This document shows, piece after piece, positions 15,075 through 24,380 of a DNA stretch of 34,939 bases (the stretch's first letter is position 1; every line of letters begins with the position of its first letter). The translations under genes were made by a program, and so were the position numbers. The notes beneath the pieces were generated by a model. That model saw only the letters and a program-made list of their open reading frames with translations, was not told the DNA's origin and did no database searches. Origin of the DNA: Thermoflexales bacterium (GTDB taxonomy: Bacteria > Chloroflexota > Anaerolineae > J036 > Brachytrichaceae); the NCBI GenBank assembly GCA_025057935.1, contig JANWUW010000082.1, forward strand, positions 1 to 34,939, read 5' to 3'.

Positions 15075-15836
15075 ATGGCGGCGGAACCTGTGGTTTTGAT
15101 CGGCGGCTTTGGGTCACACTGGCGCGACTACCGGCGCGCCGGACGGTTGCTCGCCGAGGTCAGCGGTCGGCGTGTGTTCATCGTTAAGCTCACGCGGTTC
15201 TCTTGGCTGTTCGGCGGGTTGCTAGATTACGGCGCGCTGCTCAGCCGCACGCACGCGGCTGTGCTTCATGCCTTGCGGCAAACGGGCGCGTCGAAGGTGA
15301 TCCTAGTGGGTCACAGCGCTGGCGGCGTGATCGGGCGGGCATACCTCGGCGATCAATCCCTGCGCGCGCACCATCCTGCCTACCATGGTCATCAGCGCGT
15401 CTCTGCGCTGTACATGGTCGGCAGCCCGCTCAAGGTGGTGATCACCAACCCGCGTCACCGTGGGCTGCGCGCGGCAGCTTGGGTGGATCGAACCTACCCT
15501 GGCGCCTACTTTGCGGCACAAGGTGTGCAGTATCACGTCGTGCGCGGCAGGTTCATCGAGGGCAAGCGCGAGGGCTCGCTACGCCAGCGCGAGGCTTACT
15601 TCAACTACCGCTTCATCGCTGGCGACGGCGCACAATGGGGCGATGGCGTTGTGCCGCTCGCTCTGACCGAGCTAGAAGGCGCAACGCTGATCGAACTCGA
15701 GGGCGTCTCGCACTCGCCCAACTGGCCGCGTTGGTTCTTCGCCGACGCCGAGACGATCCGCGCATGGTGGCGCACGCCCATCCCAGAGACGATGGAGGAG
15801 CGCGTGTCGGCAATGCCGATGTTCGCTAGGGCGTGA
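15075..15836 (+). CDS. Alpha/beta hydrolase, lipase/PGAP1-like
   Basis: A 253-residue alpha/beta-fold hydrolase. The oxyanion-side motif VVLIGGFGSHWRDYRRAG near the N-terminus and the nucleophile elbow VGHSAGGVIGRAYLG (S81) are intact; an aspartate in WGDGVVPL and a histidine in EGVSHSPNWPRWFF are good candidates for the rest of the triad. This arrangement resembles esterases/lipases of the PGAP1/triacylglycerol lipase type. No signal peptide is visible, so it is probably cytoplasmic. GTG 15057 is an alternative start six codons upstream. The 3' end overlaps the convergent Kelch gene by 11 bp. The substrate is unknown. Confidence 0.85.
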   Translation: MAAEPVVLIGGFGSHWRDYRRAGRLLAEVSGRRVFIVKLTRFSWLFGGLLDYGALLSRTHAAVLHALRQTGASKVILVGHSAGGVIGRAYLGDQSLRAHHPAYHGHQRVSALYMVGSPLKVVITNPRHRGLRAAAWVDRTYPGAYFAAQGVQYHVVRGRFIEGKREGSLRQREAYFNYRFIAGDGAQWGDGVVPLALTELEGATLIELEGVSHSPNWPRWFFADAETIRAWWRTPIPETMEERVSAMPMFARA

Positions 15837-17235
15837 TCGGCTTGCCAGCCTGGAACGCTGGCAAGAAAGTGCGGAAGGTCAAGACCTCGTAGGCGTATGT
15901 GTCTGCAAGCGGCACGCCGCGCATGGCGCCGCCCAGCGCGTAAAGCGTCGTCGGCGAAGCAACCACGCCAACGTAGCGCCACTCACCCAAGCGCGTGAGA
16001 GGCATCTCGAACGAAGTCCAGCGGTTTTCGTCTACGTCGTAGCGCTCACTGAATCCTACGAACCCACTCAGCCCGCCTCCCACCACAAAGATGCGCCTGC
16101 CGATCGCTGCTGCGCCGTGCCCCGCGCGCGGCGTGATCATCGGCGCACAGGGCTGCCAAGTAAGCGGAGCGTTGAGGTCGAGCTGCTCGCACGTGGCAAG
16201 CTCACGCCGACCGTCGAAACCGCCCAGCGCAAACAGACGATGATCCACCACGACAGCAGCAAGCGCGCTGCGCGGCGCCTTGAGCGCAGGCAGCGCCGAC
16301 CAGCGCTGCGCCTGAGTGTCGAGGGCAAACACCGCTTGGCTCAAGCCCATGTCGGTGCGTCCGCCGAGAACAAAGAGCTTATCTTTGCTCGCTGCAACCG
16401 CGTGTCCCGTGAGCGGCACGGGCAAAGGCGGCGCTGATCGCCATGCCTGCGCGTCGAGGTCAAGCACTTCGACCTGCTGAGTTGGCTTGCCTGCTTCTGT
16501 TGTGCCGCCGACGACGAAGACCTGCCGACCCAGCGCGGCTGCGGCTGCGCCGGTCACCGCTGTGGGCTTGGGCGTCCCCACGCGCCACACATCCTGTTGC
16601 GCGTTGTAGATCAGCACCTCGGCACTCGATCGTCCGTCCACCTCACCACCGATGACGAAGATGTTGCCTTCGGCGAAGGCGACCGCGCTCCGCAGGCGCG
16701 CGCTGCGCATGGCAGCGCGTGCGTGCCATCGGCTCGGCTCTGCGCTGTTTTGGGCTTCGCCGCTGGTGCGCGCGCTGGTCTCAAGCGCGACGTTCTCAGC
16801 GAGCGTGCGCGTTGTTCGTTCCGGCGCTGGGAACCACAACCACACTGAAAGCAGCGCCGCAAAGATGCTGCCTGCGACCAGGAGGGCGCGTCGCCAGAGC
16901 GGGAGCGGCGGCGGAGGCAATGGATCGGGCGCGACCAACACCACGCGCTCTACGCGCGGTGCCTCGATCGTCTGCGAAGGTTGTGCCGACGCAGCCTCTT
17001 GCTCTGGCTGGAGCACCACCGCGCCAATGTCCACCCAGCCATTGCGCACGGCGATCATGCTGACCTCTGTGCGTGACTGCGCGCCGAGCTTGGTGAAGAT
17101 GTTGCGCAGGTGGACGCGCACTGTGTTGGGGCTGATGTAGAGCTTGGCTGCGATTTCCTTGTTTGCGGCACCCGTGGCTACCAAGCGCACAATCTCCAGC
17201 TCGCGCTCGGTGAGCGGCTCCCCATACTCAGCCAT
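15826..17235 (-). CDS. Membrane-anchored LuxR-type HTH regulator with six Kelch repeats
   Basis: A 469-residue protein with an unusual order of domains. Residues 5-66 are a LuxR/GerE helix-turn-helix (LTERELEIVRLVATGAANKEIAAKLYISPNTVRVHLRNIFTKLG), followed by a proline-rich linker, a transmembrane helix (117-135, preceded by WRR) and six Kelch repeats whose double glycines lie near 196, 243, 291, 338, 386 and 435, enough for a closed six-bladed propeller. The simplest model is a one-component transmembrane regulator: DNA binding inside, propeller sensor outside. No receiver or signal-input domain is present. It follows tilS by 12 bp but has its own TATAAT promoter. Confidence 0.9.
   Translation of the reverse strand: MAEYGEPLTERELEIVRLVATGAANKEIAAKLYISPNTVRVHLRNIFTKLGAQSRTEVSMIAVRNGWVDIGAVVLQPEQEAASAQPSQTIEAPRVERVVLVAPDPLPPPPLPLWRRALLVAGSIFAALLSVWLWFPAPERTTRTLAENVALETSARTSGEAQNSAEPSRWHARAAMRSARLRSAVAFAEGNIFVIGGEVDGRSSAEVLIYNAQQDVWRVGTPKPTAVTGAAAAALGRQVFVVGGTTEAGKPTQQVEVLDLDAQAWRSAPPLPVPLTGHAVAASKDKLFVLGGRTDMGLSQAVFALDTQAQRWSALPALKAPRSALAAVVVDHRLFALGGFDGRRELATCEQLDLNAPLTWQPCAPMITPRAGHGAAAIGRRIFVVGGGLSGFVGFSERYDVDENRWTSFEMPLTRLGEWRYVGVVASPTTLYALGGAMRGVPLADTYAYEVLTFRTFLPAFQAGKPITP
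15841..15865. other. Perfect hairpin at convergent hydrolase / Kelch-regulator junction
   Basis: CTTGCCAGC and GCTGGCAAG form a 9-bp stem with a 7-nt loop, just after the hydrolase stop codon and inside the 3' coding end of the Kelch gene. No U tract follows on either strand, so it is a possible bidirectional 3' end but not a canonical terminator. Confidence 0.4.
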
Positions 17236-18835: not shown

Positions 18836-21175
18836 GTGTTTGCCGAGCGTCATCTTGAAACGCTCGAGCTGCCGAAGATTCTGGAGCAGCTAGCGAAGCA
18901 TTGCACCTTCTCGCTAGGCGCCACTTTAGCGCGCGCTCTGCGCCCGAGCGACGACGCTGCAACCGTCCAGCGTTGGCTCGCGGAGACGCAAGAGGCACGT
19001 CAAGCGCTTAACCGCCTCGGTCAGCTCAGCCTCAGCAGCGCGCGCGACGTGCGTGAAGCAGTGCGGCTCGCCGCGCGCGGCGGCACGCTCGATGCGCCAA
19101 CGCTGCTTGCTATTCGAGACACACTGGAGAGCGGTCGAGCTGTGCAGCGCGCCTTCGCGCGCATGGATGCACTTTATCCGCACCTCATCACCCTTGTGCG
19201 CCCAATTGCGCCATGTCGCGCCATCGTGGAGGCGATCAAGCACGCGCTCGACGACGACGGCAACGTGCGCGACGAAGCTTCGCCGCAGTTGGCGGAGATC
19301 CGCCGCGAGCTGCGCGTTGTGCACGACCAGATCATCGCGCGCTTGCAGCGCATGATCGCTAATCCAGCGATTGTCGGCTTCTTGCAGGAGGCACTGATCA
19401 CCCAGCGCAGTGGGCGCTACGTGCTCCCCGTGAAGGCGGACTTCAAAGGGCGCATCCCAGGCATCGTGCACGACCAAAGCGCCAGCGGGCAGACGCTATT
19501 CATTGAGCCGCTGGGCGTTGTGGATTTGAACAACCAATGGCGCGAGCTGCAGCTCACCGAGGAGCGCGAGGTGCAGCGCGTGCTCACTGCGCTCTCCGCA
19601 CGCGTTGGCGCTGAGGCCGAGGCGATCACGCGCACTGTCGAGGCGCTTGCGTATTTCGATCTCGTGCTTGCCAAGGCGCGCTACGCCGAGGCACTCGGCG
19701 CAGCCGCGCCCACGCTCGTGGAGAAGCCTGCCCTACCGCGCTTGCATCAAGCACGCCACCCCCTGCTGAACCCGCGCACAGCCGTGCCGATCGACGTGCT
19801 GCCCGGTGAAAACGTGCGCGCCTTAGTGATCACTGGCCCAAACACAGGCGGCAAAACGGTCGCGCTGAAGACCATCGGCTTGTTCGCGCTCATGGCGCAG
19901 TGCGGGTTGCACCTCCCTTGTGCGCGAGCTGAGCTGCCGATCTACACCGCCGTTTATGCCGACATTGGCGACGAACAGTCCATCGAGCAAAACCTCTCCA
20001 CGTTCAGCGCGCACATGACCAACTTGCGCAGCTTCATCGAGCAAACCGACGAGCGATCGCTGGTGCTGCTTGATGAGCTTGGCGCAGGCACAGATCCAGC
20101 CGAAGGCGCTGCGCTGGCGCGCGCGCTATTGGAGTACTTGTTAGGGCGCGGTGCTTGGTGCGTCGTCGCCACGCACTACCCAGAGCTGAAGGCATGGGCT
20201 GCGCTGACGCCAGGCGCGGCTAATGCAAGCGTGGCTTTCGACGCTGAGACCTTGCGCCCGCTCTACGCACTGAGCATCGGCTTGCCTGGGCGATCCAACG
20301 CTTTCGCCATTGCCCAGCGCCTTGGCTTGCCCGCGCCGATCTTGGAAGCTGGGCGCACCTACCTCGACCAAAATCTGGCGCGCAGCGAAGACCTCCTCGC
20401 AGCAATCGCAGGCTTGCATCAACAAGCCGAGCAGGCGCTCGCGCGCGCCCGCCAAGCCCAGCAGGAAGCAGAGCAAGACCGCGACCGATGGCGCGCGCAG
20501 CGTGATGCCCTCGAGCGCGAGCGCGCGGCGATCTTCGAGCAGGCGCGCCAAGAAGCCCTGCGCGAGACCGAGCACCTCCGCGCCGAAGTGCGCCGCTTGC
20601 GCGCGCAGCTCATCGCACTGGGTGTCTCGCTAGAGCCGTTGAAGAGCATCGAGCGCGAGGTGGATCGGCTCGTCGCGCGTGCCCAGCAGGCGGCAGCACC
20701 CATGCGTGCAACCGTGACGCCGCCATTGCGCACGCTGCAGCCAGGCGCCACCGTGCATGTGCGCTCGCTCAATGCGATTGGCGAGCTGGTTGCGTTAGGC
20801 GACGGTGAAGCAGAGGTGCAAGTTGGGCGCGCGCGCCTGCGCGTCAAGCTGGGCGACCTTGAGCTAGCAGACGCGCCGCGCCCCAGCGCAGAGAAAGGCG
20901 AGGGAGTGTGCCTCCCACCACCGCCTCCTCCTAAGATTGAGCTGGACTTGCGCGGCATGACCGCCGAAGAGGGTGTAGCGCAAGTAGAGCGCTACCTCGA
21001 CCGCGCCGCGCGCGCAGGCATGCCGTTCGTGCGGCTGATCCACGGCAAGGGCACAGGCGCGCTGCGCCGTGCTGTGCGCGAGGCGCTCAAGGGCAATCGT
21101 TTGGTGCGCGCCTTCGAAAGCGGCACCGACGCTGAAGGCGGCGACGGGGTAACCATCGTCTACCTCAACGATTGA
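18836..21175 (+). CDS. mutS2: Endonuclease/ATPase MutS2 with Smr domain
   Basis: MutS2 is a MutS-family ATPase that acts on branched DNA and, in some bacteria, on collided ribosomes, rather than in mismatch repair. The 779-residue protein lacks the mismatch-recognition domain. It has the core and clamp region, the ATPase with Walker A GPNTGGKT (334-341), SIEQNLSTFSAHMTN, Walker B LVLLDELGAGTDPAEGAAL and ATHYPELK, a long coiled-coil (about 525-620), a KOW-like segment and a C-terminal Smr domain with ELDLRGMTAEEG and HGKGTGALR (H736). The start is GTG 18836. The feoB-like gene begins 28 bp downstream. Confidence 0.97.
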   Translation: MFAERHLETLELPKILEQLAKHCTFSLGATLARALRPSDDAATVQRWLAETQEARQALNRLGQLSLSSARDVREAVRLAARGGTLDAPTLLAIRDTLESGRAVQRAFARMDALYPHLITLVRPIAPCRAIVEAIKHALDDDGNVRDEASPQLAEIRRELRVVHDQIIARLQRMIANPAIVGFLQEALITQRSGRYVLPVKADFKGRIPGIVHDQSASGQTLFIEPLGVVDLNNQWRELQLTEEREVQRVLTALSARVGAEAEAITRTVEALAYFDLVLAKARYAEALGAAAPTLVEKPALPRLHQARHPLLNPRTAVPIDVLPGENVRALVITGPNTGGKTVALKTIGLFALMAQCGLHLPCARAELPIYTAVYADIGDEQSIEQNLSTFSAHMTNLRSFIEQTDERSLVLLDELGAGTDPAEGAALARALLEYLLGRGAWCVVATHYPELKAWAALTPGAANASVAFDAETLRPLYALSIGLPGRSNAFAIAQRLGLPAPILEAGRTYLDQNLARSEDLLAAIAGLHQQAEQALARARQAQQEAEQDRDRWRAQRDALERERAAIFEQARQEALRETEHLRAEVRRLRAQLIALGVSLEPLKSIEREVDRLVARAQQAAAPMRATVTPPLRTLQPGATVHVRSLNAIGELVALGDGEAEVQVGRARLRVKLGDLELADAPRPSAEKGEGVCLPPPPPPKIELDLRGMTAEEGVAQVERYLDRAARAGMPFVRLIHGKGTGALRRAVREALKGNRLVRAFESGTDAEGGDGVTIVYLND

Positions 21176-21190
21176 GAGCAGGTCGAAGCG

Positions 21191-21196
21191 TACAAT
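21191..21196 (+). promoter_or_regulatory. -10 box, leaderless start of the FeoB-core gene
   Basis: TACAAT ends 7 nt before the ATG at 21204, directly after the mutS2 stop codon. No -35 at a normal distance is visible. Confidence 0.55.
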
Positions 21197-21203
21197 CCAA
21201 GCA

Positions 21204-22598
21204 ATGCCCACAGCTCAAGAAGTGCTCCAGCAAGCTGAGCGACTGCGCCAAATGTTGCCAGAAGGCTTCCGCGACGCACTGGTGCAGTCGCTTTACGCCG
21301 AAGCGCAACACATCGCGCAGCGCGCGGTTCACGCCAAAGGCGAGCGACACTACGACCTTGACCAGCGCATCGACCGTTTAGTCACAGGGCCGGTCAGCGG
21401 CTTGTTGATCATGCTGCTGCTGCTCGCCGTGGTGATCTGGCTCACGGTCTCAGGCGCGAATGTGATCTCTGATGCACTGGCGGACGTGCTCTTCGCAATC
21501 GGCGATGCGGGACGCGGTCTCTTCAATCAGCTCGGCTTGCCTTGGTGGATCACGGGCTTCGTCTGGGATGGGGTTTACCTTGCGCTCGCGTGGGTGGTGT
21601 CGGTGATGTTTCCGCCGATGGCGATCTTCTTCCCGCTCTTCACCCTGCTCGAGGATCTTGGCTACCTGCCGCGCGTCGCGTTCAACATGGACTGGCTGTT
21701 CCAGCGCGTAGGCGCACACGGCAAGCAGGCGCTCACCATGGCAATGGGTCTAGGGTGCAACGCAGCTGGCGTGATCGCCACACGCATCATTGACTCGCCA
21801 CGCGAACGCTTGATCGCCATCCTCACCAACAACTTCGTTCCCTGTAACGGGCGCTTCCCAACGCTGATCATGTTGGCGACGGCGTTTGTGGCGGCTGGTT
21901 TCAGCGGCGCGCTTGCCGCCTTCATCGCGGCGGGTGCTGTGGTTGCTGTGGTGCTGATCGGGGTGGCTTTCACGCTGCTGATGTCGTGGTTGCTCTCGCG
22001 CACGCTGCTGCGCGGCGAAGCTTCCGCATTCACGCTCGAGCTGCCGCCCTATCGCCGCCCGAACTTCGCGCGCATCCTGTACACCTCGTTCATTGACCGC
22101 ACGATCTTCGTGCTGCTGCGCGCCATGAGCACCGCGGCGCCTGCAGGCGCAGTGATTTGGCTGCTGGGCAATCTCGGTGTGGACGGTCGCAGCCTCGCTA
22201 CCATCATCGCCCAAGCGCTGGACGGATTCGGACGGCTGTTTGGTCTAGACGGCGCAATTCTGCTCGCCTACATCATCGCGCTCCCCGCCAACGAGATCGT
22301 CGTGCCGACGCTGATGATGATCTACATGAACACTGGCGCGATGATCGAGCCTCCAGAGGGCGTCGAGGCGATCCGCGCGCTGCTCATCGGGCAACAAGGA
22401 TGGACGCTGCTCACGGCGATCAACCTCATGTTGTTCGCGCTGCTCCACAACCCCTGCGCCACAACCATCATCACCATCTACAAAGAAACACGCTCTGCCT
22501 TCTGGGCGGCGATCAGCGTGGTGATCACGCTGGGCACAGCGTTCCTCGTCACGTTCCTCGTTGCAACGACTGCGCGCGCGTTGGGGCTAGCCGCGTAG
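21204..22598 (+). CDS. FeoB-type ferrous iron transporter core without GTPase domain
   Basis: A 464-residue membrane protein matching the C-terminal permease of FeoB. After a helical remnant (1-50) comes LDQRIDRLVTGPVSG, the usual entry to the first FeoB membrane helix, then LGYLPRVAFNMDWLF (152-166), HGKQALTMAMGLGCNAAGVIATRIIDSPRERL (172-203) and NNFVPCNGRFPTLIM (209-223): the FeoB gate motifs with conserved Cys185 and Cys214. The G1-G5 GTPase and most of the GDI domain are absent, compared with about 700-770 residues for full FeoB. It may be a split FeoB whose GTPase is elsewhere, or a nucleoside-recognition-domain transporter of different substrate. No feoA or G-protein gene is in the window. 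Confidence 0.82.
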   Translation: MPTAQEVLQQAERLRQMLPEGFRDALVQSLYAEAQHIAQRAVHAKGERHYDLDQRIDRLVTGPVSGLLIMLLLLAVVIWLTVSGANVISDALADVLFAIGDAGRGLFNQLGLPWWITGFVWDGVYLALAWVVSVMFPPMAIFFPLFTLLEDLGYLPRVAFNMDWLFQRVGAHGKQALTMAMGLGCNAAGVIATRIIDSPRERLIAILTNNFVPCNGRFPTLIMLATAFVAAGFSGALAAFIAAGAVVAVVLIGVAFTLLMSWLLSRTLLRGEASAFTLELPPYRRPNFARILYTSFIDRTIFVLLRAMSTAAPAGAVIWLLGNLGVDGRSLATIIAQALDGFGRLFGLDGAILLAYIIALPANEIVVPTLMMIYMNTGAMIEPPEGVEAIRALLIGQQGWTLLTAINLMLFALLHNPCATTIITIYKETRSAFWAAISVVITLGTAFLVTFLVATTARALGLAA

Positions 22599-22631: not shown

Positions 22632-24380
22632 ATGCTGATCCGCGACGTCATTGCCCACAGCGTTGCCGAAGCAATTCGCGCAGCACAAACCGAGGGCGCT
22701 CTGCCAGCATTCGCAGTGCCGCAGGTCGCCGTCGAGCATCCGCGCGACCCAAAGCTGGGGCACTACGCCACAAATGTGGCGCTACACCTTGCGCGCGCCG
22801 CGAAGCTGCCCCCGCCGCGCATCGCCGAGATCATCGCTCGCTTCGTCAATCACCCAGCGTTCACGGCTGAAGCAGTCAACGGCTTCGTCAACTTCAGGCT
22901 CTCGCCGCGCTTTCTCGCAGAACAAGTCGCGCACATCCTCGAGCGAGGGGATCGTTGGGGCGACCTCGAGCTTGGCAAAGGGCGCAAGGCACAAGTTGAG
23001 CACGGCAGCGCCAACCCCACTGGCTATGCCACGCTCGGCACTGGGCGCAACGTGGTGATCGGCGACACACTGGCGAACACGCTCGAAGCGGCTGGCTACA
23101 CGGTGCATCGTGAGTGGTATGTCAACGATGCCGGCTCGCAAGTGCGCGTCTTCGGCGCGAGCGTCTTCGCGCGCTACGCGCAAGCGCTGGGGCACGACGA
23201 GCCAATGCCAGAGCACGGCTACATGGGCGAAGACGTCGCCGAGGTCGGTCGGCTGATCGCCGAGCGCGAAGGCGACCGCTTCCTGCATATGCCGCGCGAG
23301 GAAGCAATGCGCGCCGTCGGGCGCCTCGGCATTGAGCTGGTGATGGAACGCATCCGCCAGACGATGGCACGCCTCAACGTGCGCTTCGACAACTTCTTCA
23401 GCGAGAAGAGCTTGTGGACCAGCGGGTTGGGCTACGAGATGATCGAGCGCCTGCGCGCCAAGGGATTAGTGATCGAGCACGAGGGCGCGCTTTGGTTCAG
23501 CGAGGACGGCTCGCCAATTCGTAAAGGGCAGGGACAAAAGCGCAGCGACGATGCCTACGCTGAGGAGGAGCATGAAGCGCGAAGCGGTCCCCTGCCGGTG
23601 CAAGCCGTCCTCGTCCGCTCGCCGCAGGTGATCCCAGAGCCTGAGGAGCGCCCCACCTACTTCGCCAGCGACATTCCGTACATGTGGCACAAGGTGATGA
23701 TCCGCGGCTTCAACCCAGCGATCTACGTGTGGGGCGAAGATCATCAGGGCGACGTGCCACGCATGTATGCAGCCGCGCGCGCGCTGGGCATTCCTGAGGA
23801 CGCCATCCGCATCGTGATCTACCGCTTCATCACACTCGTGCGCGGCGGCGAGGAAGTGCGCATGGGCAAGCGCAAAGGCAACGCCTTGCTGATCGACGAC
23901 GTGCTCGACGAAATCGGCGCCGACGCCTTCCGCTACATCATGCTCTCGCGCAGCGCCGACACAAAGTTCAGCTTCGACATCGCACTGCTGCGTGAGCAGA
24001 ACGAGAAGAACCCGGTGTACTACGTCCAGTACGGGCACGCCCGCATCTGCTCGATCGAGGCGAAAGCGCGCGAGGAGCAGTGGGCGATCGACCCAACTGC
24101 GCCCTTGCATTACGATCACCCCGCGGAGCTAGCGTTGATCGCCAAACTGATCGAGTTGCCCGAAGTTGTGCACCTCGTTGCCACAAGCCTGCAGCCGCAC
24201 CACTACACGACCTATGCGCGCGAAGTGGCGCAAGCGTTCAGCAAGTTTTACGAAGAGTGCCGCATCAAGGGTGCCCCGCCCGACCAAGCCTTTGCGCGCC
24301 TGCAGCTAGCGCGCGCCACTCGCCTCACGCTCGCCAAGACGCTGCGTCTCATGGGCATGAGTGCGCCCGAACGCATGTGA
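22632..24380 (+). CDS. argS: Arginyl-tRNA synthetase with aberrant HIGH motif
   Basis: ArgRS charges tRNA-Arg. The 582-residue protein has the Add-1-like N-terminal domain, the class I core with SANPTG (126-131), a GDTLANTLEAAGYTVHREWYVNDAG segment (144-168), PTYFASDIPYMWHK, YVWGEDHQGDVPRM, the KMSKS-loop equivalent RMGKRKGN (410-417) and a DALR anticodon domain ending AKTLRLMGMS. The HIGH signature, normally HVGH, reads TLGT (134-137), with both catalytic histidines replaced; I rechecked this in the DNA. A region around 290-340 is longer than usual. Either the enzyme uses a variant active site or another ArgRS supplies the cell. Confidence 0.9.
   Translation: MLIRDVIAHSVAEAIRAAQTEGALPAFAVPQVAVEHPRDPKLGHYATNVALHLARAAKLPPPRIAEIIARFVNHPAFTAEAVNGFVNFRLSPRFLAEQVAHILERGDRWGDLELGKGRKAQVEHGSANPTGYATLGTGRNVVIGDTLANTLEAAGYTVHREWYVNDAGSQVRVFGASVFARYAQALGHDEPMPEHGYMGEDVAEVGRLIAEREGDRFLHMPREEAMRAVGRLGIELVMERIRQTMARLNVRFDNFFSEKSLWTSGLGYEMIERLRAKGLVIEHEGALWFSEDGSPIRKGQGQKRSDDAYAEEEHEARSGPLPVQAVLVRSPQVIPEPEERPTYFASDIPYMWHKVMIRGFNPAIYVWGEDHQGDVPRMYAAARALGIPEDAIRIVIYRFITLVRGGEEVRMGKRKGNALLIDDVLDEIGADAFRYIMLSRSADTKFSFDIALLREQNEKNPVYYVQYGHARICSIEAKAREEQWAIDPTAPLHYDHPAELALIAKLIELPEVVHLVATSLQPHHYTTYAREVAQAFSKFYEECRIKGAPPDQAFARLQLARATRLTLAKTLRLMGMSAPERM

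Follow-up and report, generated by a model that had tools for sequence, protein, structure and literature searches.

The window analysed here, a stretch of 34,939 nucleotides from a Thermoflexales bacterium, contains an arginyl-tRNA synthetase (ArgRS) gene, argS, in which both histidines of the HIGH motif are replaced by threonine. By textbook accounts, class I synthetases are recognised by these catalytic histidines. Sequence comparison and a predicted structure make it likely that the encoded protein is the sole functional ArgRS of the organism and of its whole order, and that its catalysis follows the normal class I course although the HIGH motif is remodelled. The open reading frame at 22632-24380 (+) includes SANPTGYATLGTGRN, and the bases AGC GCC AAC CCC ACT GGC TAT GCC ACG CTC GGC ACT GGG CGC AAC translate to S-A-N-P-T-G-Y-A-T-L-G-T-G-R-N. 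A preliminary description of this DNA had reported the two threonines and an undisturbed frame, and retranslation bore out both, as the 582-aa frame reads through the motif; the two threonine codons lie within the 23010-23070 segment given there. In alignments with relatives, Thr134 and Thr137 fall on both histidines of HxGH, and R410-MGK-R414 falls on KMSKS (Table 1).

Table 1. Position of argS and of its sequence features in the window.
Feature	Position	Strand	Evidence and remarks
argS, arginyl-tRNA synthetase, 582 aa + stop	22632..24380	+	ORF; TIGR00456; PF03485, PF00750, PF05746; single copy
HIGH segment YATLGTGR, residues 132-139, replacing PLHVGHGR	23025..23048	+	translation, alignments
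Thr134, codon ACG, HIGH position 1 (usually His)	23031..23033	+	Thr in 28/28 genomes of the order
Thr137, codon ACT, HIGH position 4 (usually His)	23040..23042	+	order: Thr 19, Ser 5, Ala 4
Lineage-specific insertion, about residues 291-333	23502..23630	+	exceeds the length in other SANPTG-type ArgRS by ~32 residues
G-E-D-H, residues 368-371, ATP-side motif, usually GADH	23733..23744	+	Glu369 in 28/28 in the order; Ala in 85% outside
KMSKS loop RMGKR, residues 410-414	23859..23873	+	Lys413 and Arg414 retained; Ser to Gly at position 3; RMGKR throughout the order
DALR anticodon-binding domain	24024..24377	+	well conserved, Pfam 109.7 bits

Apart from the HIGH motif, the protein has the features of an ArgRS. 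It scores 346.2 bits against TIGR00456, exceeding the equivalog cut-off of 261.65, and three Pfam domains follow each other above their cut-offs (PF03485, residues 7-90; PF00750, 99-287; PF05746, 465-582). An AlphaFold model computed with 37 relatives has a mean pLDDT of 91.6; its best structural match is the Campylobacter ArgRS 3fnr (Z 36.8, 444 residues, 2.5 A), and the top 15 matches are all ArgRS, the 14 after 3fnr lying at Z 26-32. Residues E123, N128, Y343, D347, D370, H371 and R414 are unchanged in the alignment with all 37 diverse relatives. Arginine is presumably bound, as in the yeast ArgRS, by the E and N of the ExxxxN segment before HIGH and the Y and D of YxxxD, making E123, N128, Y343 and D347 the putative contacts here. 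From equivalog score, domains, fold and retained residues we infer an ordinary ArgRS, which, as a single copy in an essential role, would charge tRNA-Arg. The enzyme reads TLGT at the HxGH signature; HxGH is the usual signature and no test of ArgRS membership, because accepted enzymes such as TrpRS (TIGN) and IleRS2 (GXHH) also depart from it.

Canonical enzymes of the SANPTG type (3fnr, those of Bacillus/Priestia and the HxGH enzymes of Chloroflexota) share with the order the domains, the fold, SANPTG, a KMSKR-like loop with a lysine at position 4, and DALR. In contrast to them, the order has TxGT (or TVAA/TVAS) for HxGH, RMGKR for KMSKR, GEDH for GADH and the insertion ahead of the second half of the catalytic domain. 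The preliminary description had placed this insertion around residues 290-340, and it is real: the stretch W288-T342 spans 55 residues in the window enzyme and 48-78 in the order, versus mostly 23 (20-28) in other SANPTG-type ArgRS, with a low-confidence loop in the model at about 301-320. The KMSKS loop had also been listed as departing from consensus, and the serine to glycine exchange is indeed unusual, but the basic positions 1, 4 and 5 are retained, so that the loop is less deviant than had been implied. The basic residue at position 4 is supplied by Lys413, in a loop with a pLDDT of 60-75.

As to the surroundings of argS, the upstream region 18836-22598 holds a MutS2-like gene (MutS_V and Smr) and a frame for a membrane protein that matches Gate and FeoB_C domains but no FeoB GTPase domain. 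The product of the gene at 15826-17235 (-) combines Kelch repeats with a LuxR/GerE DNA-binding domain in one chain, an uncommon pairing.

The change of the motif extends through the entire order, the Thermoflexales/Roseilinea group of the Anaerolineae, for which 28 genomes were compared (G417 as a single contig, all others as drafts). A HIGH histidine is present at neither position in any of the 28, and a normal HxGH in close relatives, which the preliminary description had named as the finding that would speak for a sequence error, did not turn up. The Thr134 codon, read in 27 genes, is ACG in 13, ACC in 7, ACT in 4 and ACA in 3; the use of all four threonine codons indicates conservation at the amino-acid level rather than of the bases themselves. 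Position 136 is Gly in 19 and Ala in 9 genomes, and two sub-clades can be distinguished, one with YATIGTGR-like motifs and one with PLTVAAGR/PLTVASGR; in the sister genera with TVAA/TVAS (L069-L076), the His, Gly and His of HIGH are thus all substituted. Close argS pairs within the order have a dN/dS of about 0.06-0.14, indicating purifying selection on the gene, which the preliminary description had already held to be under selection. The invariant threonine with its varied codons, together with the low dN/dS, suggests that Thr134 is held by selection and that position 137 drifts among small residues. Further changes specific to the order are F124H, V125G, Y162W, A369E (GADH to GEDH), H374D and Q398R, some of which sit in ATP-side motifs and may contact ATP. 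H124 was considered as a replacement histidine (Phe elsewhere, His in 27 of 28 genomes of the order); the archaeal ArgRS of P. horikoshii has VEH together with HMGH, so that H124 is no clear substitute.

Outside the order, the Chloroflexota sample comprised 60 SANPTG-type ArgRS and 53 of other types. Among the former, 20 have HxGH, 23 the first histidine only, 3 the fourth only and 14 neither; the motifs without histidine are TVGS, TIGS, TAAS, TVGA, TLGR, SVGR, PVAA, TAVA, QVGN, TAGN and TVAN. HxGH is kept in all 53 enzymes of other types; ahead of HIGH these carry THK/THH or AK-type segments, and they have no lysine at KMSKS position 4. In a FastTree phylogeny of 115 rows the order forms one clade with a support of 100, adjoined by a TVGS enzyme of a neighbouring family (L098), and the state without histidines involves 11 changes, at least six of them forced by well-supported branches. 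Eight readable ArgRS of other phyla, from plasmid-borne argS, all have histidine at HIGH position 1, and in two of them the histidine at position 4 is absent (HIGG in Streptantibioticus, HMGN in Monoglobus). Partial or complete loss of HIGH is common in SANPTG-type ArgRS across Chloroflexota. The loss is therefore wider than the preliminary description had stated, being order-wide, including the motif glycine in the sister sub-clade, and belonging to a phylum-wide degeneracy in enzymes of the SANPTG type.

Other class I synthetases of the same genome have a normal HIGH motif in ValRS (HMGH), MetRS (HVGH), CysRS (HLGH) and GlnRS (HIGH). The GluRS reads HIGG, which is common in that family. The LeuRS (L173, compared with L192-L221) reads SVGH, with the first histidine replaced by serine, as in several other Chloroflexota; it is 62-68% identical, over two halves, to family f25 (G052, G012, G024), versus about 52-57% over the larger matched part for other Anaerolineae and most of the phylum, and was perhaps acquired by gene transfer. 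The IleRS of this genome and of the order (L171 / L222-L250) reads PMGVHH, and where the motif region is visible, in 26 of 29 loci, it is GVHH in 25 and GAHH in one (L241). The first HIGH histidine is thereby absent from three class I enzymes of this genome, ArgRS, IleRS and LeuRS.

In IleRS2, a GXHH motif has been linked to mupirocin hyper-resistance (PMC10485003). By this precedent, and with GVHH in the IleRS and SVGH in the LeuRS of the same genome, the ArgRS could be an active enzyme whose HIGH motif was altered by selection for escape from a naturally occurring ATP-site inhibitor, as has been proposed for IleRS2 and mupirocin. We consider this improbable: no known ArgRS inhibitor or producer is tied to the clade, and among SANPTG-type enzymes the losses turn up in many families and with many different residues, a scatter more suggestive of drift under relaxed constraint.

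Less probable still is the paralogue of reduced or altered synthetase activity that the preliminary description had offered; such a protein might be, for instance, a regulatory or modification enzyme, with another ArgRS charging tRNA-Arg. Both histidines of the catalytic signature are absent, PF00750 scores only 49.6 bits, and the NrtL proteins of Streptomyces represent an ArgS-related family of non-synthetases, whose model (NF045898) matches the window enzyme weakly. However, this match of 133.1 bits is below the NrtL cut-off of 340, whereas the ArgRS equivalog cut-off is passed. Moreover, a search with PF00750 gave a single match in the window's genome, which is 97% complete, and no second ArgRS there or in the other 27 genomes of the order, including the single-contig G417; each match in the 28 genomes falls in a gene homologous to the window ArgRS. 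The only other DALR_1 match in the window's genome has 23 bits and lies in a 1009-aa frame that, judged by its size, is probably GlyRS. A hidden second ArgRS is thus unlikely, and the order-wide change, the single copy and purifying selection favour the other reading that had been offered, an unusual active site of the clade. A sequencing, assembly or alignment artefact is refuted by the fixation of the motif in 28 genomes, many from different assembling groups, with synonymous codon variation and an intact frame; the fixation also argues against a chance change.

An active ArgRS with a remodelled HIGH motif is supported by the fixed change, the single gene copy, the purifying selection on it, the fold and the conservation of other active-site positions. 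The enzyme of the order would activate arginine with ATP and then charge tRNA-Arg. Earlier work indicates that the main role of HIGH is exerted on the phosphates of ATP during the transition state, and mutation of either histidine in TyrRS reduces activity (PMC5919687). Thr134 may substitute for the first HIGH histidine, with putative contacts to the phosphates, the helix and main-chain contacts of the HIGH region would be retained, and charge stabilisation would be borne by Arg410, Lys413 and Arg414. Compensation would be provided by KMSKS and by the second-shell changes H124, G125, W162, E369, D374 and R398.

Precedents for such an arrangement exist in part. Bacterial TrpRS functions with TIGN instead of HIGH (PMC10201369) and shares with the order a natural threonine in place of the first histidine, but it belongs to another synthetase subclass, has Asn at position 4 (Thr, Ser or Ala in the order), and its activity is proven. 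IleRS2 likewise has a natural change of HIGH and keeps activity, tolerating GXHH by means of a shifted motif (PMC10485003); there, however, the histidines are rearranged and the position of the catalytic nitrogen is preserved, whereas the ArgRS motif of the order has no histidine at all. Both histidines are also missing in the engineered change of HVGH to AVGA in the LeuRS of P. horikoshii, by which the full-length enzyme lost most of its activity, while a LeuRS urzyme performs better in their absence; much of the catalysis is attributed to backbone contacts (PMC10450160). In contrast to this severely impaired mutant, the ArgRS of the order is natural, fixed and encoded by an essential gene. 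As the AVGA and TyrRS mutants are impaired, compensation in the ArgRS of the order would have to be real. Since an entire order has its only ArgRS without them, even a natural enzyme of full length can probably do without the HIGH histidines.

The 115 rows of the tree point to a relationship between the two signature motifs. Rows without His or Arg at HIGH position 4 all have a basic residue at KMSKS position 4, Lys in 58 and Arg in one; conversely, rows with a non-basic KMSKS position 4 have His or Arg at position 4 of HIGH. No ArgRS among the 115 lacks both a His/Arg at HIGH position 4 and a Lys/Arg at KMSKS position 4. The five rows with Arg at HIGH position 4 form one clade, in which the KMSKS lysine is replaced by Thr; these Anaerolineae (L018, L019, L145, L157, L158) have RMSTR, which looks like a transfer of positive charge from KMSKS to HIGH. 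The pattern suggests the hypothesis, based on few independent events in the tree, that one basic or histidine group would have to come from either the HIGH or the KMSKS side. More generally, though the odds seem somewhat against it, the HIGH histidines may be dispensable for catalysis as a rule in SANPTG-type ArgRS: the KMSKS loop would have taken over stabilisation of the transition state, and charge at HIGH position 4 would be traded against charge at KMSKS position 4. If so, the TVAA/TVAS genera would supply the natural equivalent, with full activity, of the crippled AVGA mutants, and HIGH would have been relaxed in parallel in the ArgRS, LeuRS and IleRS of one lineage.

Nothing direct on an ArgRS lacking HIGH was found in the literature searched, mostly non-subscription papers. 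Altered HIGH motifs are known from TrpRS (TIGN) and IleRS2 (GXHH); here the loss is complete, fixed and in a single-copy ArgRS. An essential single-copy enzyme without both histidines, and in some genera without the glycine, offers a natural test of the contribution of HIGH and of its coupling to KMSKS, and the Chloroflexota provide graded natural variants for probing HIGH function. Many Chloroflexota would be misjudged if their synthetase genes were called active or dead from this motif.
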